From contig NZ_JAJERH010000013.1 of NCBI RefSeq assembly GCF_016919725.2, forward strand, positions 1 to 64,000: a stretch of DNA of 64,000 nucleotides, given 5' to 3'. The position numbers and the translations under genes were made by a program. This document shows, piece after piece, positions 37,003-62,284 of this stretch (within the stretch, counting starts at the first letter, position 1; each line of letters begins with the position of its first letter). Origin of the DNA: Virgibacillus sp. AGTR (GTDB lineage Bacteria; Bacillota; Bacilli; Bacillales; Amphibacillaceae). Under the pieces are notes generated by a model. The model was not told the DNA's origin. It saw only the letters and a list, made by a program, of their open reading frames with translations, and did no database searches.

Positions 37003-37247
37003 GAAAAGGCAATGAAGAGGACATGAGTTACTTTAGACGGTTTCCAGAGAAGGAAGAAATGCTGAAAACTTCCTAACCTATAATGTAAGTTACCACCTCT
37101 GAGGCTGTATTGGGGAAATAAAGTATCCAGTACCGTGAAGCTACGTTACAGCGCCATAAGCCAATGAACGCCTATTGTTTATTGGGAAGTTGGGTGGAAC
37201 CACGAATTAACACATTCGTCCCTATGTTAGGGATGGATGTGTTTTTT
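37003..37247 (+). promoter_or_regulatory. T-box leader 1 (threonine)
   Basis: Begins near GCAATGAAGAGGACATGAG, has AG-bulge AGAGAAGG, a specifier region TTACCACCT (codon ACC, Thr, inferred), the conserved TGGGTGGAACCACG (37191-37204), and a terminator AACACAT ... ATGTGTT with T run (to 37247). Almost a copy of leader 2. By the known mechanism, uncharged tRNA-Thr would favour the antiterminator. Confidence 0.85.
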
Positions 37248-37440: not shown

Positions 37441-37469
37441 CTCTAAGCAAGTTAATTGTATGCGATCGA

Positions 37470-37709
37470 ATGGCGATGAAGAGGACATGAATTATTTTTT
37501 GCCGTTACCAGAGAGGGAAGGAAAGCTGCGATCTTCCTAACGAAGGAAAATGATTTACCACCTTGGAAGCCGTATTGGGGAAATAAAGTATCCAGTACCG
37601 TAAAGCTACGTTACAGCACCATAAGCCAATGAACGTAAATGGTTCATTGGGAAAATGGGTGGAACCACGGGTAAGACACTCGTCCCTGTACTAGGGATGG
37701 GTGTTTTTT
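37470..37709 (+). promoter_or_regulatory. T-box leader 2 (threonine), upstream of thrZ
   Basis: GCGATGAAGAGGACATGAA, AG-bulge AGAGAGG, specifier region TTACCACCT, TGGGTGGAACCACG (37656-37669) and a terminator ACACTCGTCCCT ... AGGGATGGGTGT with T run. It directly controls thrZ. I see no promoter between the leaders, so transcripts probably pass both decisions in series. Confidence 0.9.
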
Positions 37710-37758: not shown

Positions 37759-39675
37759 ATGAAAAATTCAATTCATATTCAATTTCCGGATGGAAAAGCA
37801 AAAAAATATCCGAAGGGGATTAGACTTACAGATGTAGCATCATCCATTAGTCAAAGCTTATCCAAACATGCAATTATAGGAAAGGTTGATGGTAGATTAG
37901 TCGATTTAAGCTACCGATTAGAAGCGGATGCATCTGTTGCTATATTAACAATGGATTCAGCTGAGGGTATTAAAGTTATGCGACATTCGACTGCCCATGT
38001 ATTAGCCCAAGCGGTAAAAAGGTTGTTCGGAGGCGTGAAGCTAGGAATTGGTCCAGTCATTGACAATGGCTTTTATTATGATTTTCAACTTGACCATAGC
38101 TTGAGCTTGGATGATTTTCAGCTTATCGAAAAAGAAATGAAGAACATTATTCAGGAAAAGCTAGAAGTGAATCGAAAGGTAGTATCCTATGAAGAGGCTG
38201 TCCAGGTATTTAAGGAGAAAAAAGAGCCATTTAAACTAGATTTACTAAACAATCTACCGAAGGATGAAGAAATAGCACTGTATCAGCAGGGAGAATTTAT
38301 TGATTTATGCCGTGGTCCCCATGTGCCGCATACTGGCTTTATTAGAGCATTTAAGCTATCGCATATCTCAGGAGCCTATTGGCGAGGTGATAGTGAAAAC
38401 GAGGTTTTACAACGTATCTATGGCTTTGCCTTTAAGAAGCAGGCAGATTTAGCCAATCATCTTCATTTCTTAGCAGAAGCCAAAAAGCGAGATCATCGGA
38501 AATTAGGAAAGCAATTAGAGCTTTTTATGTTTTCCGAAGAAGCACCAGGAATGCCGTTTTACTTACCAAATGGTCAAATTATTCGTAACGAATTAGAGAA
38601 TTTTTCTCGAGAAGTACAAAATAAAGCAAACTATCTAGAAGTACGTACACCATTAATGATGAATCAACGTCTGTGGGAACAATCAGGACATTGGGATCAT
38701 TACCATGAGAATATGTATTTTACAGAAGTTGATGATACGGATTTTGCACTGAAGCCAATGAACTGCCCTGGACATATGTTGATGTTTAAAAATAATCTTT
38801 ACTCGTACCGAGACTTACCAGTTCGAATGGCGGAGTTTGGTCAGGTTCATCGCCATGAATTTAGTGGTGCTTTAAATGGAATGCTACGTGTACGTACATT
38901 TTGTCAGGATGATGCCCATATCTTTGTAAGGGAAGATCAAATAGAAGAAGAGATTAAGCAAGTGTTTCATCTGATTGATCATGTTTATCGTACATTTGGT
39001 TTTTCTTATTCGGTGGAACTCTCCACACGTCCAGCCAATTCTTTAGGGGATGACCAGCTATGGGCAGTTTCAGAAGGGGCATTATCAAATGTGCTTCATG
39101 ATCTAAATATTGATTATCAGCTCAATGCTGGAGATGGGGCTTTCTATGGTCCGAAAATCGATTTTCATATTAAAGATGCCTTAAATCGAAGTCATCAGTG
39201 CGCAACAATTCAGCTCGACTTTCAAATGCCAGATAAATTTGATCTATCTTATATAAGTGAAAACAATGAAAAGGTTCGACCTGTAGTCATTCACCGAGCA
39301 ATCTTCGGTTCTCTTGACCGATTCTTTGGTATTCTTATTGAACACTTTGCTGGTGCATTTCCAATTTGGCTAGCACCAATACAGACACAAATCATTCCTG
39401 TATCAAAGGTCCATGCTGAATATTGCTTTCATGTTCAAGCGAAACTTAAGGAGCTAGGGATAAGAGTAAAAATAGATGATCGAAATGAGAAGCTGGGATA
39501 TAAAATTAGAGAGGCGCAGATGAAGAAGATTCCTTATATGCTAGTTCTTGGAGATAAGGAAATAGAAAATAAAACAGTAAATGTTCGTGCTTATGGTAAG
39601 CAGCAATCCGAAAGTATGGATGTAGATAAATTTATCGAAAAAATGATTCATCAAATAAAACAAAGAGCGCTATAG
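37759..39675 (+). CDS. thrZ: Threonyl-tRNA synthetase
   Basis: 638 aa. TGS domain (1-65), editing domain with HSTAH and the zinc-type CRGPH (about 70-230), the class II catalytic core (motif 2 region FGQVHRHEFSGALNGMLRVR, NCPGHM, HRAIFGSLDRF as motif 3) and an anticodon-binding domain (about 540-638). It charges tRNA-Thr. Length and the tandem T-boxes fit the Bacillus ThrZ (second, induced) enzyme better than ThrS. AAGGAGG precedes the ATG. Induced when threonine is short, through the leaders above. Confidence 0.9.
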   Translation: MKNSIHIQFPDGKAKKYPKGIRLTDVASSISQSLSKHAIIGKVDGRLVDLSYRLEADASVAILTMDSAEGIKVMRHSTAHVLAQAVKRLFGGVKLGIGPVIDNGFYYDFQLDHSLSLDDFQLIEKEMKNIIQEKLEVNRKVVSYEEAVQVFKEKKEPFKLDLLNNLPKDEEIALYQQGEFIDLCRGPHVPHTGFIRAFKLSHISGAYWRGDSENEVLQRIYGFAFKKQADLANHLHFLAEAKKRDHRKLGKQLELFMFSEEAPGMPFYLPNGQIIRNELENFSREVQNKANYLEVRTPLMMNQRLWEQSGHWDHYHENMYFTEVDDTDFALKPMNCPGHMLMFKNNLYSYRDLPVRMAEFGQVHRHEFSGALNGMLRVRTFCQDDAHIFVREDQIEEEIKQVFHLIDHVYRTFGFSYSVELSTRPANSLGDDQLWAVSEGALSNVLHDLNIDYQLNAGDGAFYGPKIDFHIKDALNRSHQCATIQLDFQMPDKFDLSYISENNEKVRPVVIHRAIFGSLDRFFGILIEHFAGAFPIWLAPIQTQIIPVSKVHAEYCFHVQAKLKELGIRVKIDDRNEKLGYKIREAQMKKIPYMLVLGDKEIENKTVNVRAYGKQQSESMDVDKFIEKMIHQIKQRAL

Positions 39676-54297: not shown

Positions 54298-54342
54298 CAA
54301 AAATATATGTAGGCTATGCCTATAAAACGATATATGAACGAC

Positions 54343-54430
54343 TGCACTTCCCCACGCTAGTATTATCTAGATCGGGTTATAAGGGTCAGAGTAGTCTCTT
54401 CTCAGCCATGTACATAGCTCCCCTAGTGCA
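54343..54430 (-). promoter_or_regulatory. TPP riboswitch (THI element)
   Basis: Minus strand: GCACTAGGGGAGC, CTGAGA, GACCCTTATAACCCGATCTA, AATACTAGCG, GGGGAAGTGC. These are the conserved THI-box segments. With TPP bound, the downstream terminator forms and ykoFEDC is shut off. Confidence 0.95.
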
Positions 54431-54658
54431 ATTTAAAATAGATATGCAGTTTTTATGTATTTATATATACTACTAATAGAATAGTTCAATTAGTGCTTTT
54501 TGTAAATACGATAAGTGATATACTGTGAAATAAAGCAACTTATAGAACTGCTAGACTTTTTGACTTGATACCTCACATTGCAATGAAGTACATGAGCAAT
54601 GTAATCAAAAGAGTAATAAGCTAAAATGTTGGGTGTATAAGAGAATAGTGAGCAGTTA

Positions 54659-55723
54659 TCATTCTCTAGAATTATACTTATTCTGTATCCGATGTACCTC
54701 GTCCATTAACTCGTTGCCAATAATCGTAGTCATCTGATCGTATACAGCTTTCCATGCATTCTTCCATTGCTCTCTTTCTCTTGTTGTAAGAAAGTGAATA
54801 GTAACAACATCTTTTTTTCTTAATTCACGTGTATAATGATCATTCATCTCAATCGCGTGACGTTTCCCCCAATCCGTTGCTTCACTTAAGGCAGCTTGAA
54901 TGGCTGATTGATTATATTCAGATAATGATTCCCAAAAAGGCTTATTAATAAAAACACCGTATCCGAGATAACCGTGATTGCTCATAGTTACAAACGGTTG
55001 ATGCTCATAGAATTTTTTAGAGTAAATATTAGAAATCGTATTTTCCTGTCCATCAATAAAATGTACTTCCAAGTTTTGATAAGTTTTATTAAATGGTAAG
55101 CTACTTGTGCTAGCATGTACTTGATTAAATTGTTCCTTAATAACAGGACTAGGCATAATACGGAAATGGAGTCGGTTTACATCATCTGGTAGTTTGATAA
55201 CGTGTACTTGATTCGTAAGCTGTTTATAACCGTTATACCAAAAAGTCAAGCCCTTCACGTTTGTATTATGAAGGTTTGCAAGCAATGTTTTCCCTATTTT
55301 ACCCTCATATGCTTCCGTTACTGCCTCGTGTGTAGGGAATGCATAGGGGAGATCAAGGATACCCCATTTGGGAAATAGCTCACTTACCTTAGCTGTTGCC
55401 GGGGCAATCATTTCAACATTCCCATTTTGGATGGCTTCCCACTCATTGGTGTCATTATATAGAGACCCATTTGCATAAATGTGGACTTTGATTCTTCCAT
55501 TTGTTTTTGCTTCTACAAGTTGAGCAAACTTCCGGGCTGTTTGTCCCTTTGGTGTGTCAGTCGCAACAACATGACTAAACCGAATGATGATTTGTTCACG
55601 TAATCCCTCTTGTTCATCATCATAATCATCTGTTCCACGAATTGTCTCGAAGTCAATTCCAATTACGACAGCGGAAACAAGTCCTGTTATAATAAATGTT
55701 AGAATTATAAAAAAGTTTCGCAA
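54659..55723 (-). CDS. dctB: DctP-type solute-binding protein, probable DctB co-sensor
   Basis: 354 aa. One N-terminal membrane helix (LRNFFIILTFIITGLVSAVV) without a lipobox, then the TRAP DctP fold (RFSHVVATDTPKGQTARKFA; FRIMPSPVIKEQ carries the carboxylate-binding Arg). The start is TTG with GGAGG seven nt upstream; the longer frame to 55978 is family 1 repeat sequence. In B. subtilis DctB is an anchored binding protein that works with DctS in sensing C4-dicarboxylates. Here it is divergent from dctS, and the nearby transporter has its own different (TAXI) receptor, which supports a sensing role. Confidence 0.82.
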   Translation of the reverse strand: MRNFFIILTFIITGLVSAVVIGIDFETIRGTDDYDDEQEGLREQIIIRFSHVVATDTPKGQTARKFAQLVEAKTNGRIKVHIYANGSLYNDTNEWEAIQNGNVEMIAPATAKVSELFPKWGILDLPYAFPTHEAVTEAYEGKIGKTLLANLHNTNVKGLTFWYNGYKQLTNQVHVIKLPDDVNRLHFRIMPSPVIKEQFNQVHASTSSLPFNKTYQNLEVHFIDGQENTISNIYSKKFYEHQPFVTMSNHGYLGYGVFINKPFWESLSEYNQSAIQAALSEATDWGKRHAIEMNDHYTRELRKKDVVTIHFLTTREREQWKNAWKAVYDQMTTIIGNELMDEVHRIQNKYNSRE

Positions 55724-55769
55724 ATAATTACCTCCATGAACTAAATAGAGAAAGTTCAGTGTGTGGTCA

Positions 55770-55966
55770 TTCATCCCGCATATAACCGCAGTAAGCTCCC
55801 GCTTCAAGTAATAAAGAGAAACCAATATGGGCGATGGATCGACTGCCGGTAAATGTCCGATTGGTTCGGGCCTCCATGGAAGTAGGTCACAAAGGCGTTG
55901 CCACAGGAAGTGGCGAATGAAGCCTTTGTACGTATTTGTTTTAGTAAAAACGGACGGAAGTTTTAC
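55770..55966 (+). repeat. Family 1 intergenic repeat, long copy H1
   Basis: TTCATCCCGCATATAACC to GGAAGTTTTACTTTA. First-stem arms AACCGCAGT and ACTGCCGGT differ from the standard pair but still match except for one missing base. Carries an extra segment with GGCGTTGCCACAGGAAGTGG. Confidence 0.85.
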
Positions 55967-56125
55967 TTTATCCCGCATATAACTGGCAGTAAGATACCCA
56001 CTTCAAGCAATAAAGAGAAACCAAAATGGGAAGTGTGGAACAACTGCCAGTAAATGTCCGATTGGTTCACCTAACCATCCGTGGGGATAAACAAAACCCC
56101 CCCACGGATGGAAGTTTCACTTTAT
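55967..56125 (+). repeat. Family 1 intergenic repeat, long copy H2
   Basis: Directly follows H1. First stem ACTGGCAGT / ACTGCCAGT; second hairpin CCATCCGTGGGG / CCCCACGGATGG with loop ATAAACAAAA; ends GAAGTTTCACTTTAT. Lies in the dctB-dctS promoter region. Confidence 0.9.
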
Positions 56126-56172
56126 TTTATCATAATATTCTATCAATCATTAAACTTAAGGAGAAGTGGGGA

Positions 56173-57807
56173 ATGGTAAGTCTTCGTAAAATGCCAATTA
56201 GACTAAAGATTATGATTCTATCTTTTGGGATTGTTCTATTTACGCTCTTAATTGGTGGCATTATGCTTATCGGCAATCTTTTTCAAGGAAAAGAAGAAGG
56301 GCTTGGTGAGCGTGGACTTATGACAGGGAGGATCGTGGCGAACTTACCAGAAATAAAGGATTCAATTGTAAAAGCACGAGGCTGGAAAACAATCAATCCA
56401 ATTGTTGAGCGAATACGTACGATTAATCAAGTTGATTACATTGTTGTTTTAAATATGAACCGTATCAGATTCTCCCATCCAATCGAAAAACAGCTCGGAA
56501 CGGTATCGTCAGGGAAGGATGAAGGGGCTGCTTTTGCTGAGCATAGTTATGTTTCAAAAGCGAAGGGGGAACAAGGAACTGCTATCCGTTCTTTTGTTCC
56601 AATTGTTAATGATAGCTTTGAACAAATAGGAGTAGTGCTTGTCGGAAATATGCTCCCATCATTTTGGAACATACTTTTATCTATACGAGTAGAAATAATG
56701 ATCATTGCTTTACTGACAATAGCCTTTGGAATCATTGGTTCTTATTTATTGGCAAGACATGTTAAAGAACAGACGTTTTGGATGGAGCCATATGAGATAG
56801 CGAGGGTGCTAAAAGAGAGAACAACAGTTTTTCAAGCAATGCATGAAGGCGTTATTGCTGTAGATCGTGATGAGCGGTTAGTTGTTTTTAATGAAAAGGC
56901 AAAAGAGATTTTACATATTGAAATGGATGTTAATGATGCTCTCATGAGTACGGTCTTGAAAGACAAAGTAATGGTACAGCAATTAAGAGGGCAGACGGCA
57001 GCTTATAATGAAACATTGAGAGTTCATGAGAAGCTAATTATGTTAAATCGGATTCCAATAGAAATAGAAAACGAACGGATAGGCTGTGTGGTGGTTTTTC
57101 AAGATCGGACAGAAGTTACAAAGATGGCAGAGGAGTTAACAGGTGTAAAAGCTTTTGTCGATGCATTACGTGTTCAAAATCATGAACATATGAATAAGCT
57201 TCATACAATTGCAGGATTAATTCAGTTAGAAGAAAATGAGCGAGCGTTGGAATATGTTTTCCAAACGACACAGAAGCAGGCGTCCTTAACAAGGTTCATG
57301 ATGCAACGAATTAAAAGTTATAGTATTGCAGGTTTGCTTATTAGCAAGATACGTAGAGGTGAAGAGCTAGGAATTGATGTTAGAGTGGATGGTCAAACGT
57401 CAATAAAAGCATTTCCAACTGTGTTTAACAATCATGATATGGTGCTCATACTAGGGAATTTAATTGAAAACGCAATTGACGCATGTGCTATATCAGAGAT
57501 AAAGCAAAAAAGGATTAATATCACAATTTATCAAAATGAAACGGATTGTATGATAAAAATCATTGATAATGGAATTGGTATCGTTGATACGGATCGAATT
57601 TTTGAAAAGGGCTATACGACCAAAGGGAAATCCGGATCAGGAATTGGCCTATATTTAATACAGCAAATGATATCCAAGGCAGAAGGGACTATATCAGTTG
57701 ATTCAGTATTACATCAGGGGACACAAATTATTATAACGATTCCAATGATGTTGAGAAAGGAAGGGTTCCGTGATAAGAGATTCAGAAGTGAAAGTATTGC
57801 TGATTGA
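56173..57807 (+). CDS. dctS: Sensor histidine kinase, CitA/DctS family
   Basis: 544 aa. Membrane helix (about 12-35), extracellular PDC/sCache sensor domain (40-165), second helix (about 173-193), PAS domain (215-315), dimerisation region with phospho-acceptor His337 in QNHEHMNKLH, and HATPase (IENAIDACAI, DNGIGI, KSGSGIGLYLIQ). It matches DctS/CitA-type carboxylate sensors. The ATG at 56173 is preferred over an ORF starting inside repeat H2. The response-regulator gene overlaps its end. Confidence 0.9.
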   Translation: MVSLRKMPIRLKIMILSFGIVLFTLLIGGIMLIGNLFQGKEEGLGERGLMTGRIVANLPEIKDSIVKARGWKTINPIVERIRTINQVDYIVVLNMNRIRFSHPIEKQLGTVSSGKDEGAAFAEHSYVSKAKGEQGTAIRSFVPIVNDSFEQIGVVLVGNMLPSFWNILLSIRVEIMIIALLTIAFGIIGSYLLARHVKEQTFWMEPYEIARVLKERTTVFQAMHEGVIAVDRDERLVVFNEKAKEILHIEMDVNDALMSTVLKDKVMVQQLRGQTAAYNETLRVHEKLIMLNRIPIEIENERIGCVVVFQDRTEVTKMAEELTGVKAFVDALRVQNHEHMNKLHTIAGLIQLEENERALEYVFQTTQKQASLTRFMMQRIKSYSIAGLLISKIRRGEELGIDVRVDGQTSIKAFPTVFNNHDMVLILGNLIENAIDACAISEIKQKRINITIYQNETDCMIKIIDNGIGIVDTDRIFEKGYTTKGKSGSGIGLYLIQQMISKAEGTISVDSVLHQGTQIIITIPMMLRKEGFRDKRFRSESIAD

Positions 57808-58459
57808 GGACGACCCTATGGTACAAGAAGTCAATAAAAGAATGGTAGAAAGGGTAGAGGGCTTTCACGTTATTGCAATAGCCGAAAACGGGAAGCAAGG
57901 CTTGGAATTATGTCAATACAACAATCCCGATCTCGTTCTGCTGGATATCTATATGCCTGAACAAGATGGTATCGCAGCACTTAAAGCGTTAAGGGAGTTA
58001 GAGTTGGATTTGGAGGTGATTATCATTTCCGCAGCTAATGAAATGAATATGGTTCGTAATATGCTACATCACGGAGCTCTCGATTATATTATTAAACCAT
58101 TCAAATTTGATCGTCTTGTTCTGGCACTGACTAAGTATAATCGTTATCGTCGCCAATTTAATGCAAGTGAAAAGGTAGATCAGCAAACGATTGATGTCTT
58201 AATGATGCAGAATGAACAGAATAGTAGACAAGGACATTTGCTGCCTAAAGGCTTAAATAAACAAACATTGAATCAAGTAATTGAATTTTTAGGCTCCCAG
58301 AATGAGCCTGCTTCAGCAGATAAAGCAGCTGAAAGTATAGGTATTGCACGGGTTACCGCAAGGAGATATTTGGATTACTTAGAGAAGATGGATCGCGTAG
58401 AGATTATCCTCCAGTATGGTGTGGTTGGTAGACCAGTTAATCGATACAAGCTTATTTAA
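57770..58459 (+). CDS. dctR: Response regulator, CitB/DctR family
   Basis: 229 aa. Receiver domain (8-120) with Asp59 in LVLLDIYMPEQDG and acidic pocket EDD at 13-15; C-terminal helix-turn-helix (SADKAAESIGIARVTARRYL). GTG start after GGAAGGG, overlapping dctS by 38 nt. By family knowledge it activates the nearby transporter genes; the dyad at 58477 is a candidate target. Confidence 0.9.
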   Translation: MIRDSEVKVLLIEDDPMVQEVNKRMVERVEGFHVIAIAENGKQGLELCQYNNPDLVLLDIYMPEQDGIAALKALRELELDLEVIIISAANEMNMVRNMLHHGALDYIIKPFKFDRLVLALTKYNRYRRQFNASEKVDQQTIDVLMMQNEQNSRQGHLLPKGLNKQTLNQVIEFLGSQNEPASADKAAESIGIARVTARRYLDYLEKMDRVEIILQYGVVGRPVNRYKLI

Positions 58460-58476
58460 TGGCTATCTAAAAGACC

Positions 58477-58508
58477 AATATGAACAAAATGTACAATATG
58501 TTCATATT
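58477..58508. promoter_or_regulatory. Candidate DctR operator
   Basis: Perfect 10-bp dyad AATATGAACA / TGTTCATATT with a 12-nt gap, 63 nt before the TAXI receptor start. Spacing suits two half-sites on the same DNA face. Confidence 0.6.
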
Positions 58509-58523
58509 ATTCTTAAAATAAAA

Positions 58524-58537
58524 TGAAAGCGTTATCA
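58524..58537. promoter_or_regulatory. cre site at the TAXI-TRAP promoter
   Basis: TGAAAGCGTTATCA fits the CcpA consensus. With the dyad before it, the operon seems induced by DctSR and repressed by preferred sugars. Confidence 0.75.
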
Positions 58538-58570
58538 TATAGAAAAGGATTTTAAAGGAGGGTACTTGTT

Positions 58571-59563
58571 TTGAAAAAATACCTTGTGTTGATATGTATG
58601 TTTTCAATTATTATCGCTTTATCAGCTTGTGGAGAGGAAGAAGCAGCCGAACATTCGGAGGAAGTTAGTGGTGATGGTCAACCAATTGTTTTTGGGACTG
58701 GCGGTACTTCGGGAACGTACTACCCCATTGGCGGAGCATTAAAGCCTATTTTTGAAGAAAGTGATTATATTAATAATGTCACTGTCGAGTCTACTGGTGC
58801 TTCCGTAGCGAATATTCAGAATATGCAGGATGGGTTAAATCAGATGAGTATTATTATGAGTGATGTAGGTTACGATGCGCTTCAAGGAAAGGGACAGTTT
58901 GAAGGTAATCAAGTGGATGTGCAAGCAATGGCTGGTATGTATCAAAATGTTGTTCAAGTTGTCGCAACAGCGGACAGTGGAATCGAAGCAATCGAAGATT
59001 TGGAAGGAAAACGTGTTGGTGTTGGTAAAGTTGGTTCAGGAGTCGAGCAAAGCGCTAAAAAGGTATTAGAGGTACTTGGATTATCATACGATGATCTTTC
59101 CAAAGTAACGCATACTGGTTATGCGGATAGTGTACAGGAAATGAAAAACGGAAATTTAGATGCAGCATTCTTCACCTCTGGAGTACCGAATAGTAATATA
59201 ACTGATTTAATGCAGCAAAACGAAGTAGTATTTGTAGAAATTAACGGTGAAATTGCAAAAAAACTAATGGAGGCGTATCCATTCTATAAAGAATTTACGA
59301 TTCCAGCTAGAGATGAGGCGATGTATAACCTAGATCGAAAGGTAAATACGGTTGGTATTCAAAACATAATTACTGTTTCTCCAGAGCTTAGCGAAGATCT
59401 CGTATATGATTTGACGAAACGATATTACGATTATTTAGGAAGCGAAGAGGTATCTATAAGTGCATTAAAACAACTCGATCGGGATGACTTGGCCGAAGGT
59501 TTGGTAGTCCCAATCCATTCAGGTGCTAAAAAGTTTTATGAAGAACAGGGGATTTTAAAATAA
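58571..59563 (+). CDS. TAXI-family TRAP solute receptor, lipoprotein
   Basis: 330 aa. Lipobox LSAC (Cys20), then the TAXI fold: VFGTGGTSGTYYPIGGALKP, ESTGASVANIQNM, DLEGKRVGVGKVGSGVEQSA, DAAFFTSGVPNSNI. TAXI receptors catch glutamate, 2-oxoglutarate or similar organic acids outside the cell and deliver them to fused TRAP permeases. TTG start behind AAGGAGGG. First gene of a three-gene operon with a DUF1850 protein and the permease. Confidence 0.9.
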   Translation: MKKYLVLICMFSIIIALSACGEEEAAEHSEEVSGDGQPIVFGTGGTSGTYYPIGGALKPIFEESDYINNVTVESTGASVANIQNMQDGLNQMSIIMSDVGYDALQGKGQFEGNQVDVQAMAGMYQNVVQVVATADSGIEAIEDLEGKRVGVGKVGSGVEQSAKKVLEVLGLSYDDLSKVTHTGYADSVQEMKNGNLDAAFFTSGVPNSNITDLMQQNEVVFVEINGEIAKKLMEAYPFYKEFTIPARDEAMYNLDRKVNTVGIQNIITVSPELSEDLVYDLTKRYYDYLGSEEVSISALKQLDRDDLAEGLVVPIHSGAKKFYEEQGILK

Positions 59564-59580
59564 GATGCTTCAATAAAAGG

Positions 59581-60063
59581 ATGTCGCGACTTAAATGGAT
59601 AGTGATAACGATTATAATGGTTGGGCTAGGTGTGTTGCTCGTACCAGTAAATGCAATACTTGTATCACAAGGAACAACCATCACCTATGCTTTTCTTCAA
59701 AATGATGATGTTTTTTCTTTACAGTGGATTCATTCTGTTGAAAAGGAAGCCTGGGTGGAAAACTTCATAGTTGATGATCAAATTATTTCATTAGATTCCA
59801 CCAAATTTAAAACATTTGGTGCTGGAGTTCCTACATGGTCAGAGCATTCAACCGAAGTTCAAGATGGTTGGGTATATATGCAGATAGATAGAGTGATTGG
59901 TGCCGAGCTAGTGCTAAGGTCTTCGCTAATGAATGATTACCAGTTGATCTATCAAAAGAAAAGATACCCTTTGGAAGCAAGTAATATGGCTTATATAATA
60001 GAGGCTAAACAAGCGCCTCTCTTCTTCATTCTATGGACAACAGTAAAAGAAATGGTGGGATGA
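59581..60063 (+). CDS. DUF1850 protein of the TAXI-TRAP operon
   Basis: 160 aa. N-terminal membrane helix (WIVITIIMVGLGVLLVPV), then DUF1850: FSLQWIHSVEKEAWVENF, FGAGVPTWSEHST. DUF1850 genes almost always sit between a TAXI receptor and a fused TRAP permease, as here; the role is unknown. The AAAGG site touches the ATG, so translation probably depends on coupling from the gene 18 nt upstream. Confidence 0.85.
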   Translation: MSRLKWIVITIIMVGLGVLLVPVNAILVSQGTTITYAFLQNDDVFSLQWIHSVEKEAWVENFIVDDQIISLDSTKFKTFGAGVPTWSEHSTEVQDGWVYMQIDRVIGAELVLRSSLMNDYQLIYQKKRYPLEASNMAYIIEAKQAPLFFILWTTVKEMVG

Positions 60064-60066
60064 TAT

Positions 60067-62217
60067 ATGAATGAAAAAGCAAATTTGGAGGGGTTTGAAC
60101 GGGAAAGCAATGTACGTACACAATACCCATTAGTTATAGGCATCCTAATTACCGTGTTAGCAGCTGGATTAGGTTTGTTTCATCTTTATACGTCATATGC
60201 TGGTTCACTTGTAGATATCAAACAACGTAGTCTTCATTTATACACATTAATGGTGTTAGGTTTTTTATTATATCCTATAATGAAAAAAAGAAAGCACAAC
60301 GGTATCCCCGTCTATGATTATCTGTTTGCGGGGATATCCCTCCTACTTGGTATTTATATGCTTGCATCTGCTAACCGAATTATTGAATCTGGTGGTCAAA
60401 TTAACGATATAGATGTTTATGTCGGTATTGCTGTCCTTATTATATTATTTGAGATTACAAGAAGGGTGACGGGGTGGGGACTAACGTTACTCGCATTTGG
60501 ATTTCTTGCTTATGGGTTTTACGTAAAGTTATCCATATATCCTGAGCTAACAGGTCCCATTATATTAAGTGTTTCGGAAGGAATTCTATCTCATTTAATC
60601 TACATCACAGAGGGAATCCTAGGGACAGCAATCGGAGTATCTGCTAGTTATATTATATTATTTATTCTGTTTGGTGCATTTTTAAGTAAATCGGGAATGG
60701 GGCAGATGTTTAATGATCTGGCAATGGCGGTAGCTGGTCATACGAAGGGTGGACCAGCTAAGGTGGCTGTTCTGGCAAGCGGCTTTTTAGGTTCAATTAA
60801 TGGTTCCGCTATCGCAAATGTAGTGACAACGGGTGCTTTTACGATTCCGTTAATGAAAAAAGTAGGATATCAGAAGAATTTTGCAGGGGCTGTCGAGTCT
60901 TCTGCTAGTGTTGGTGGGCAAATATTACCTCCAATAATGGGAGCAGCAGCCTTTATCATGGCTGAGAATCTAGGTATACCATATACAACAGTGATCTTAG
61001 CTGGAATTATTCCTGCATTATTATTTTATATTGGTATTTTACTCCAGATCCATATTAGGGCTTCTAAGCTTGGTTTACGTGGATTAAATAAGAATGAGTT
61101 GCCAACTGTGAAGGAGGTATTAATCCAACGTGGTCATCTCCTGATTCCAATGGCTATCCTATTGTATTTGCTATTTACAGGGAAGACGCCATTCTACGCA
61201 GCGTTTTGGTCGATTGTATCAACGATTATTATTACAGGTACTGGAAGAACGTTACTTATCGGAATGGCAGTTTCTTTATTTCTTATATTTGAATCTCAGA
61301 TAAGAGCACTCCTATCAGGGATAAGTATGCCGATGTTACGTGATAACTGGTTAGAGCTTGGGCTAATTGTCCTGATACCTTTAGTCATTAATCTTATACG
61401 TAAAAAGGCAAAGGTGAAAGCAGAGGAAATAGATGTTCGGGATTTTTTTGGGGCATTGGAAAAAGGTGTTCGTACAACCATTCCTGTGGCAGTTGCTTGT
61501 GGTGCGGTTGGCATTATTGTAGGTATAGCTTCTTTAACCGGTGTAGCGCTTGAGATTGCAAGCTCCATCGTAAGTGTCGGTGAAATGATTCAGAGTCCCC
61601 TTGTTCAGCTTTTAATCACATTAGCGTTAACGATGGTCGCGTCGATTATTTTAGGGATGGGATTACCAAGCATTCCAACCTATATTATTACAAGTACAAT
61701 GGCAGCCCCAATATTACTACAATTACCATATTTTAGAGAATTAGCTGGAACAGATGAAACAGCTATTTTTGTTGCACATATGTTTGTGTTTTATTTTGGA
61801 ATTTTTGCTAATATCACTCCGCCAGTTGCGTTAGCTGCCTTTGCAGGTTCAGGTATTAGCGGTGGTGATCCGATGCGTACAGGCATGCAAGCAATGAAAC
61901 TAGCAATTGCTGGATTTATTGTACCATTTATGTTCGTCTTTTCTCGTGAAATGTTGATGATCGATGCTACGATTAGGAATCTACTACTTATTACGGTGAC
62001 TTCACTAACAGGGGTTTTTCTTTTATCCGTAGCAGCTGAAGGCTTTTTGAAGGATGCACTTCCCTGGTATATCCGAGTGATAGCAACCTTAGGAGCATTG
62101 CTGCTCATCTATCCTGGTATTTGGACAGATATGGCAGGCATATTAGCTCTTATTTTAGTTCTATCCTCCAACTGGCGAAAAATAATAGAAAGAGAGAGAG
62201 AAAATCAGGTCGGTTAA
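60067..62217 (+). CDS. Fused TRAP permease (4TM/12TM)
   Basis: 716 aa, about 17 membrane segments. The first part corresponds to the small DctQ-like unit, the rest to the DctM unit, with GSINGSAIANVVTTGAFTIP and SASVGGQILPPIMGAAAFIM as its core signature and a second inverted half (LGMGLPSIPTYIITSTMAAP; ITPPVALAAFAG). It imports organic acids with Na+ or H+ using the TAXI receptor. Starts 4 nt after the DUF1850 stop. Confidence 0.92.
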   Translation: MNEKANLEGFERESNVRTQYPLVIGILITVLAAGLGLFHLYTSYAGSLVDIKQRSLHLYTLMVLGFLLYPIMKKRKHNGIPVYDYLFAGISLLLGIYMLASANRIIESGGQINDIDVYVGIAVLIILFEITRRVTGWGLTLLAFGFLAYGFYVKLSIYPELTGPIILSVSEGILSHLIYITEGILGTAIGVSASYIILFILFGAFLSKSGMGQMFNDLAMAVAGHTKGGPAKVAVLASGFLGSINGSAIANVVTTGAFTIPLMKKVGYQKNFAGAVESSASVGGQILPPIMGAAAFIMAENLGIPYTTVILAGIIPALLFYIGILLQIHIRASKLGLRGLNKNELPTVKEVLIQRGHLLIPMAILLYLLFTGKTPFYAAFWSIVSTIIITGTGRTLLIGMAVSLFLIFESQIRALLSGISMPMLRDNWLELGLIVLIPLVINLIRKKAKVKAEEIDVRDFFGALEKGVRTTIPVAVACGAVGIIVGIASLTGVALEIASSIVSVGEMIQSPLVQLLITLALTMVASIILGMGLPSIPTYIITSTMAAPILLQLPYFRELAGTDETAIFVAHMFVFYFGIFANITPPVALAAFAGSGISGGDPMRTGMQAMKLAIAGFIVPFMFVFSREMLMIDATIRNLLLITVTSLTGVFLLSVAAEGFLKDALPWYIRVIATLGALLLIYPGIWTDMAGILALILVLSSNWRKIIERERENQVG

Positions 62218-62231
62218 TAGAAATAAATGAT

Positions 62232-62282
62232 AAAAAAGATGTTAATTATCCATGCAAAAGCATCGATATCAACATCTTTTTT
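62232..62282 (+). terminator. Terminator of the TRAP operon
   Basis: AAAAAAGATGTT / AACATCTTTTTT with a 27-nt loop containing a smaller CATGC/GCATCG fold. The T run leads straight into family 2 copy c. Confidence 0.8.
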
Positions 62283-62284
62283 AA

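Follow-up and report, generated by a model that had tools for sequence, protein, structure and literature searches.

Introduction

The DctB-DctS-DctR system of Bacillus subtilis works with a DctA symporter, and DctA is reported to belong to the sensor as well (DctS-DctB-DctA) (PMC6978683). Here, we describe a locus in which the same three sensor protein types, compared with no B. subtilis sequence by name, stand beside a TAXI-TRAP importer. The locus occupies positions 54659-62217 of a 64,000-nucleotide stretch from Virgibacillus sp. AGTR (NZ_JAJERH010000013.1, positions 1-64,000), which we call the window. The TAXI-TRAPs VcGluP/VcGluQM and that of P. mirabilis are likewise described as a TAXI receptor with one fused permease (PMC11574862). 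Unlike these, the present system has lost the amino-binding residues of the receptor, includes a separate DUF1850 protein, and adjoins a two-component regulator.

MaeKR of Lactobacillus casei offers a precedent for a response regulator of the citrate family binding to direct repeats in tandem, with three TTATT(A/T)AA repeats reported as the MaeR target (PMC5457438); the locus described here carries four to five 9-bp repeats of the type GACCAAAAA. As is reported for B. subtilis dctP, a catabolite-responsive element (cre) lies over the presumed -10 region, and the cre given for B. subtilis, TGAAAACGCTATCA (PMC3463425), is letter for letter the cre of one relative studied here (L109). The glaH(csiD)-lhgO pair of the Escherichia coli glutarate pathway also occurs near relatives of this locus. 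For E. coli, glutarate uptake is ascribed to KgtP, and not to a TAXI-TRAP as proposed here, in a 2025 paper according to which there was no earlier report of a microbial transporter for the uptake of glutarate (PMC12622518). Each part of the locus is of a known kind. No account of the DctBSR/TAXI-TRAP pairing, of a 9-bp operator across four carrier families, or of a link between glutarate and TRAP carriers was found in the open-licence literature, parts of which were available to us, and earlier reports may exist.

In the circuit we propose, the anchored receptor DctB and the kinase DctS would detect an external dicarboxylate. Phosphorylated DctR would bind four to five 9-bp direct repeats reaching from about -72 to the -35 and activate the TAXI-DUF1850-fused TRAP operon, and CcpA, bound at the cre over the -10, would silence the operon whenever better sugars are available. 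The TAXI receptor would feed its own fused permease, DctB not being a transport receptor. The cargo would most likely be a C5 acid without an amino group, namely glutarate or the acids formed in its breakdown, L-2-hydroxyglutarate and 2-oxoglutarate. The genes, the conserved array, its spacing, synteny, residue changes and neighbouring genes are read directly from sequence, and from these we infer DctR as the binder, the direction of regulation, DctB as a co-sensor, the cargo and the ligand sensed. Taken as a whole, we regard this sensor-importer module as likely.

A sensor trio beside a TAXI-TRAP operon

The locus consists of dctB on the reverse strand, followed by the divergent genes dctS, dctR, TAXI, DUF1850 and fused TRAP on the forward strand, together with a cre. 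The dctB gene (55723 to 54659, reverse strand) encodes a membrane-anchored DctP-type protein of substrate-binding protein family 7 (PF03480, 290.3 bits), probably a co-sensor. The dctS gene (56173-57807) encodes a DcuS/DctS-type histidine kinase with an extracytoplasmic sCache_3_2 domain (PF17203), a SpoOB-type dimerisation domain (SPOB_a) and HATPase_c, all above their cut-offs, and a PAS domain below its cut-off. The product of dctR (57770-58459) combines a Response_reg domain (PF00072, 105.5 bits) with a DpiA-like helix-turn-helix domain that stays under its cut-off, and can be placed among DcuR/CitB-family regulators at the subfamily level only. The best curated models, of the DcuS/MalK family (NF008298.1, 410.6 bits against a cut-off of 520) and of DcuR (NF007750.0, 184 against 262 bits), remain below threshold, and the two proteins are therefore named DctS and DctR from the order of the genes and from their domains. 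The importer comprises a TAXI receptor lipoprotein (58571-59563; TIGR02122, 300.5 bits, cut-off 84.35) with an LSAC lipobox recognized by eye, the DUF1850 protein (59581-60063; PF08905, 76.5 bits), and a fused, DctQM-like TRAP permease (60067-62217; TIGR02123, 674.4 bits, cut-off 320.65). Every gene named in the original prediction is thus found by domain and family profiles where it had been placed.

To compare the locus, we searched 295 related genomes for DctB-like proteins, and 229 gave a match at E<=0.001. From these matches, mostly the highest-ranking, we read 60 neighbourhoods, along with 12 loci of a named collection. Loci were picked by DctB similarity; among the 60, second copies in a genome were often passed over, and a few lower-ranking ones were taken. 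Two loci (L053 and L055) were left out as the same records as L041 and L042, and two more without DctS (L107 and L112) were left out of the classification by carrier type; in one locus (L069), dctB had been missed by gene calling and was found by DctB similarity search. The 69 loci so classified, the window included, comprise 27 with a TAXI carrier of the window's clade (TAXI-a), 16 with DctA, 13 with a TAXI of a distant lineage (TAXI-d), eight with DctPQM, two with DASS, and three with no adjacent carrier. To name the carrier families, we applied curated models to examples (DctA, 647.9 bits with a cut-off of 513; DASS, 318.8 with 198.6; DctQ, 93.0 with 28.3) and assigned the remaining loci by phmmer similarity. 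In all 27 TAXI-a loci, the trio stands beside the same TAXI-DUF1850-fused TRAP genes. Orthologues of the TAXI-a receptor occur in 23 of the 295 genomes, including its own, with at least 63% identity, the next protein having 43%.

A conserved 9-bp repeat array ahead of the carrier

In the stretch that separates dctR from the carrier, the relatives share an element of four 9-bp direct repeats, GACCAAAAA GACCAAAAT GTCCAATAT GTTCATAAT, after which comes a fifth, degenerate unit. The array of the window, GACCAATAT GAACAAAAT GTACAATAT GTTCATATT (ATTCTTAAA), occupies 58473-58517 of the forward strand, ends at a weak -35, and is our proposed DctR operator. Scored against a fixed 9-bp unit with a maximum of 36, it reaches 35. 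At a stringent score of at least 33, the 70 loci examined (2.53 Mb, both strands counted) contain 58 matches, 57 upstream of a carrier and one elsewhere (L106), where "upstream of a carrier" includes DctB or DctP if either leads the carrier operon. At this score, 57 of the 70 loci have a match upstream of a carrier. Seven of the 13 others reach the looser score of 32 (L069, L076, L078, L084, L102, L108, and L110), while at that score none is found in L051, which ends at a contig edge, in L063 and L094, whose genomes hold an array-carrier pair elsewhere, or in L080 and L096; L112 was not displayed there. In a 40-locus subset, a period of 9 gave 34 matches, and periods of 7, 8, 10, 11, and 12 gave none.

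A weight matrix built from 26 TAXI loci, the window included, has a single match above 0 in the 64-kb window, which is the array itself (78.9 bits), and a search of the 4.7-Mb genome with a pattern modelled on this array gives one match. A general pattern of greater stringency, to which the array of the window does not conform, matches 23 of the 295 genomes, once each, and its reversed control none. Twenty of these matches are located at trio loci; the other three (L170, L171, and L172) each lie upstream of TAXI or DctA.

Some points here weigh against the proposed circuit. The unit was derived from the same loci that it scores, for which reason the location of the matches, the period control and the genome-wide tests count for more than the scores. 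L080 and L096 have a carrier and no array even at a score of 32. Four of the eight DctPQM loci (L070, L072, L084, and L092) have the array without a cre at fixed spacing, and one TAXI-a operon apart from its genome's trio (L185) has no clear array.

The array might also be read by a regulator other than DctR, as its distance from the trio in two genomes could suggest: in L171 it stands upstream of DctA on a contig other than the trio's, and in L172 it accompanies a TAXI operon about 16-19 kb from the trio, beyond an EutB-containing gene cluster. Even so, in both genomes the array has stayed with a carrier, which speaks for DctR. We consider this improbable, since 57 of the 58 array matches go with carriers of dctBSR loci. 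The comparison within the window's genus points the same way, as L183 has neither dctR nor an array at a score of 32 or more at this site; L170 and L184 have kept both there, with a short dctR gene in L184. That DctR acts at this promoter is well supported by these sequence comparisons, with the array as its probable site.

The original prediction had marked the promoter by a 10-bp dyad and a cre. Both are present. The dyad, AATATGAACA-N12-TGTTCATATT, lies at 58477-58508, within the array. Perfect 10-bp dyads with a loop of up to 20 occur 42 times in the window, with overlapping matches counted apart, so that finding such a dyad says little by itself. In the other 26 TAXI loci, only three to eight of the 10 bases pair at the corresponding position of the alignment, and the dyad is perfect in this genome only. 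We therefore rejected the dyad as an operator and regard it as an accident of the direct-repeat array, the conserved element.

The cre reads ATGAAAGCGTTATCA (58523-58537, forward strand) and is the sole match to WTGNAANCGNWNNCW on either strand of the 64 kb. The distance from the array start to the cre is exactly 51 bp in 26 of the 27 TAXI loci; the region of the 27th (L047) is cut short, and there the weight matrix finds the same array-cre spacing. In five TAXI-d loci, the distance is 49. The array and cre at this shared spacing, with the gene order of the 27 loci, support the predicted wiring of the trio to the TAXI-TRAP operon.

As the cre of B. subtilis dctP is reported at -14 (PMC3463425), a cre placed alike in the window would put the transcription start near 58545. 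The presumed -10, TATCAT (58533-58538), would then lie beneath the cre, a weak -35 (TTCTTA) would coincide with the fifth repeat, and the four main repeats would span -72 to -37. Such a layout would suit an activator reaching the -35 and CcpA blocking the -10.

Exchange of the carrier behind the sensor

In relatives, the array precedes the carrier beside dctBSR whether this is DctA, DctPQM, TAXI-a, TAXI-d, or, in one of its two loci, DASS. We mapped the carrier type on a DctS tree that left out L089 and the three loci with no adjacent carrier. The TAXI-a loci form one clade (27 of 65 rows) with a value of 99 in the Shimodaira-Hasegawa-like approximate likelihood ratio test (SH-aLRT). By a quick method, the carrier type requires seven changes on this tree, the least possible being four and the mean of shuffled types 33.2, which indicates that the carrier behind the sensor was swapped several times.

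A variant arrangement is seen in part of the second TAXI lineage (L105, L106, L108, L110, and L111), where the array separates dctR from dctB, so that DctB becomes part of the operon under control. Of these five DctBs, at least three carry a lipobox; further downstream there is a DASS-like carrier.

DctB as a probable co-sensor

The DctP-type core residues, Arg188, Asn228 and others, are found in all 68 DctBs and in all eight transport DctPs compared. This conservation would fit DctB as a further receptor for uptake, one able to dock on the TRAP permease as well, a reading we hold to be highly improbable. DctB also stands beside DctA and DASS carriers, which are known as receptor-free, and dctB is divergently transcribed at this locus. 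The DctB of the window has no lipobox; by motif, 62 of the 68 DctBs are negative and all eight transport DctPs positive. Among the six motif-positive DctBs, three resemble genuine lipoproteins, in two the cysteine falls within the membrane helix, and one results from an over-long start; the DctB of L111 looks like a further lipoprotein missed by the motif. TAXI and DctP receptors are, moreover, described as unrelated in sequence (PMC12344293).

The trios driving DctPQM carry DctB plus a separate lipoprotein DctP, and these eight DctPs form a clade of their own (0.94), outside which DctB lies; on this tree we rejected the idea that DctB is a recent copy of a transport DctP. As predicted, the anchored protein has no DctQM partner near the locus. 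A free DctQM for DctB was not found elsewhere in the genome by a DctM search, DctQ as a family not having been searched. The genome's one strong separate DctM gene, on another contig (C1), adjoins its own DctP and a DctQ-sized gene, and we judge it unlikely that DctB serves it. A co-sensing role of DctB, already proposed by the original prediction, is likely given the missing lipobox and the separate DctP clade, together with the reported DctS-DctB-DctA sensor of B. subtilis (PMC6978683).

The adjacent carrier here is the TAXI-TRAP and not a DctA-type symporter. No DctA orthologue was found in the genome, which has five near-full-length matches of the SDF family, the best at 36% identity; four of the five were tested over their matching parts, and all miss the DctA cut-off. 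If a carrier takes part in sensing at all, we would accordingly predict the TRAP permease as the partner.

Cargo of the importer

In VcGluP, the amino group of glutamate is reported to be bound by Y45, Q93, and E125, and the alpha-carboxyl by S75 and G156 (PMC11574862). All 27 TAXI-a receptors show Q93M, E125N, D157V, Y200F, and M201T relative to VcGluP and keep Y45, S75, and G156. The second TAXI of the same genome retains Q93 and E125, and the TAXI-d receptors have T at both positions 93 and 125 in 13 of 13, having lost S75 and G156 as well. Glutamate import in the manner of VcGluP would follow from family membership and from similarity along the whole receptor. Nevertheless, we hold this reading to be very improbable, because both amino-group ligands are replaced in all 27 receptors and kept in the genome's other TAXI, and the cargo is probably not glutamate. 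Glutarate fits the change of the pocket, being glutamate minus the amino group.

The neighbouring genes point in the same direction. Near the TAXI-a loci, we found genes for GlaH, a glutarate dioxygenase (hydroxylase; 440.4 bits against a cut-off of 333), and LhgO, an L-2-hydroxyglutarate oxidase (597.2 against 299). LhgO yields 2-oxoglutarate from the product of GlaH. In lysine breakdown, GlaH is reported to convert glutarate to L-2-hydroxyglutarate (PMC6265302). The glaH gene is near 13 and lhgO near 14 of the 27 TAXI-a loci, and neither is near any of the 39 loci with other carriers. One locus with no adjacent carrier (L063), which has its TAXI-a about 16-19 kb off, also has glaH and lhgO. 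In three species of the window's genus, lhgO takes the place of dctB-dctS at this site and is followed by dctR in L170 and L184 or directly by TAXI in L183. The site in these three lies between genes that we take, from Pfam hits and otherwise by eye, to be ThiW-like ABC genes and a YidC-like gene.

The same circuit may instead carry C4-dicarboxylates (succinate, fumarate, and malate), the TAXI-TRAP being a plain substitute for DctA. We consider this unlikely, though it is the strongest of the alternatives. In its favor, the trio and the array are common to DctA loci, and no DctA orthologue was found in the genome. Likewise, R107, H110, S120, G140, and R147 of DctS are identical in TAXI and DctA loci, as is F149 in all but one row of each group; the DctS of the window retains the equivalents of DcuS R107, H110, G140, R147, and F149, residues known for their role in DcuS. 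Against C4 cargo stand the presence of glaH and lhgO near TAXI-a loci and near none of the 39 loci with other carriers, and the sequence of DctB itself. Eight DctB positions are clade-specific (26 TAXI-a rows compared with 24 of DctA/DctPQM), including Y163 and H186, the latter two residues before Arg188, which are both present in 26 of 26 TAXI-a rows and suggest a shifted ligand.

Several observations also count against a C5 acid. The likeness of the DctS pocket in TAXI and DctA loci means that the signal could be a C4 compound. The residue mapping onto VcGluP rests on distant alignments. The Fisher p values for glaH and lhgO, 1e-6 and 3e-7, are too small, kin loci not being independent, and for 14 of the 27 TAXI-a loci the sequence read holds no glaH. 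The window itself has no glaH, lhgO, FAH or SDR gene of this set, and neither glaH nor lhgO was found in 46 loci of the same genome (160 kb), the rest of which was not searched. An SDR lies near 22 and a FAH-family enzyme near 12 of the 27 TAXI-a loci. No clear pathway was obtained for these two neighbours, which fit the glutarate route in no nameable way, and a different acid is possible. On balance, pocket residues and neighbouring enzymes favor a C5 acid that lacks an amino group, and the C4-dicarboxylate or glutamate cargo implied by the original prediction is probably wrong.

Gene boundaries and other features of the window

The places of the genes were given correctly by the original prediction, and two of its starts had to be replaced. 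The dctB gene very probably starts at a TTG at 55723 (354 amino acids), with GGAGGT ahead, instead of 55978, and dctS very probably at an ATG at 56173, with AAGGAG ahead, instead of 56026; both ribosome-binding sites were judged by eye. The additional 5' stretches of the earlier calls fall within high-copy intergenic repeat DNA. The gap between dctB and dctS (55773-55867 and 55968-56128) is made up of a repeat of about 155 bp, which has 78 matches in the genome, several in head-to-tail arrays, and folds well (z -4.0). The adjoining piece (55871-55938, reverse strand) matches the Bacillaceae-1 RNA of Rfam.

The permease gene is followed at 62231-62283 on the forward strand by what, by eye, is a likely operon terminator, an inverted repeat of 16 bp (94% complementary) accompanied by a run of T. 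The DUF1850 protein was modelled with high confidence as a β-rich domain with a helix at either end, at a predicted local distance difference test score (pLDDT) of 91.5; a search of PDB structures with the model returned 915 matches, none of them at E<=0.001. The neighbouring operon (YkoF/ABC transporter) is preceded by a thiamine pyrophosphate (TPP) riboswitch at 54332-54434 on the reverse strand. Elsewhere in the window, tandem T-box leaders (37003-37226 and 37467-37690) lie upstream of an open reading frame at 37759-39675.

Implications

A broader proposition follows the module beyond this genome: that the TAXI-a systems are a family of binding-protein-dependent importers of glutarate (C5-dicarboxylates) with a dedicated glutarate-sensing DctBS, and that the DctR 9-bp repeat promoter is a portable switch which Bacillales have placed before four carrier families (DctA, DctPQM, TAXI-TRAP in two distant lineages, and DASS). 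We put forward the two parts together only tentatively, as somewhat short of an even chance.

KgtP is a symporter without a binding protein. If our reading is true, glutarate would enter by a route that depends on a binding protein, the TAXI-TRAP, and the poorly understood TAXI systems would gain a class of ligands. The exchange of carriers makes it a testable question which part replaces DctA in the sensor when the carrier is a TAXI-TRAP, DASS, or DctPQM. The repeat array would also allow targets of DctR to be sought by sequence across the genomes of Bacillales.

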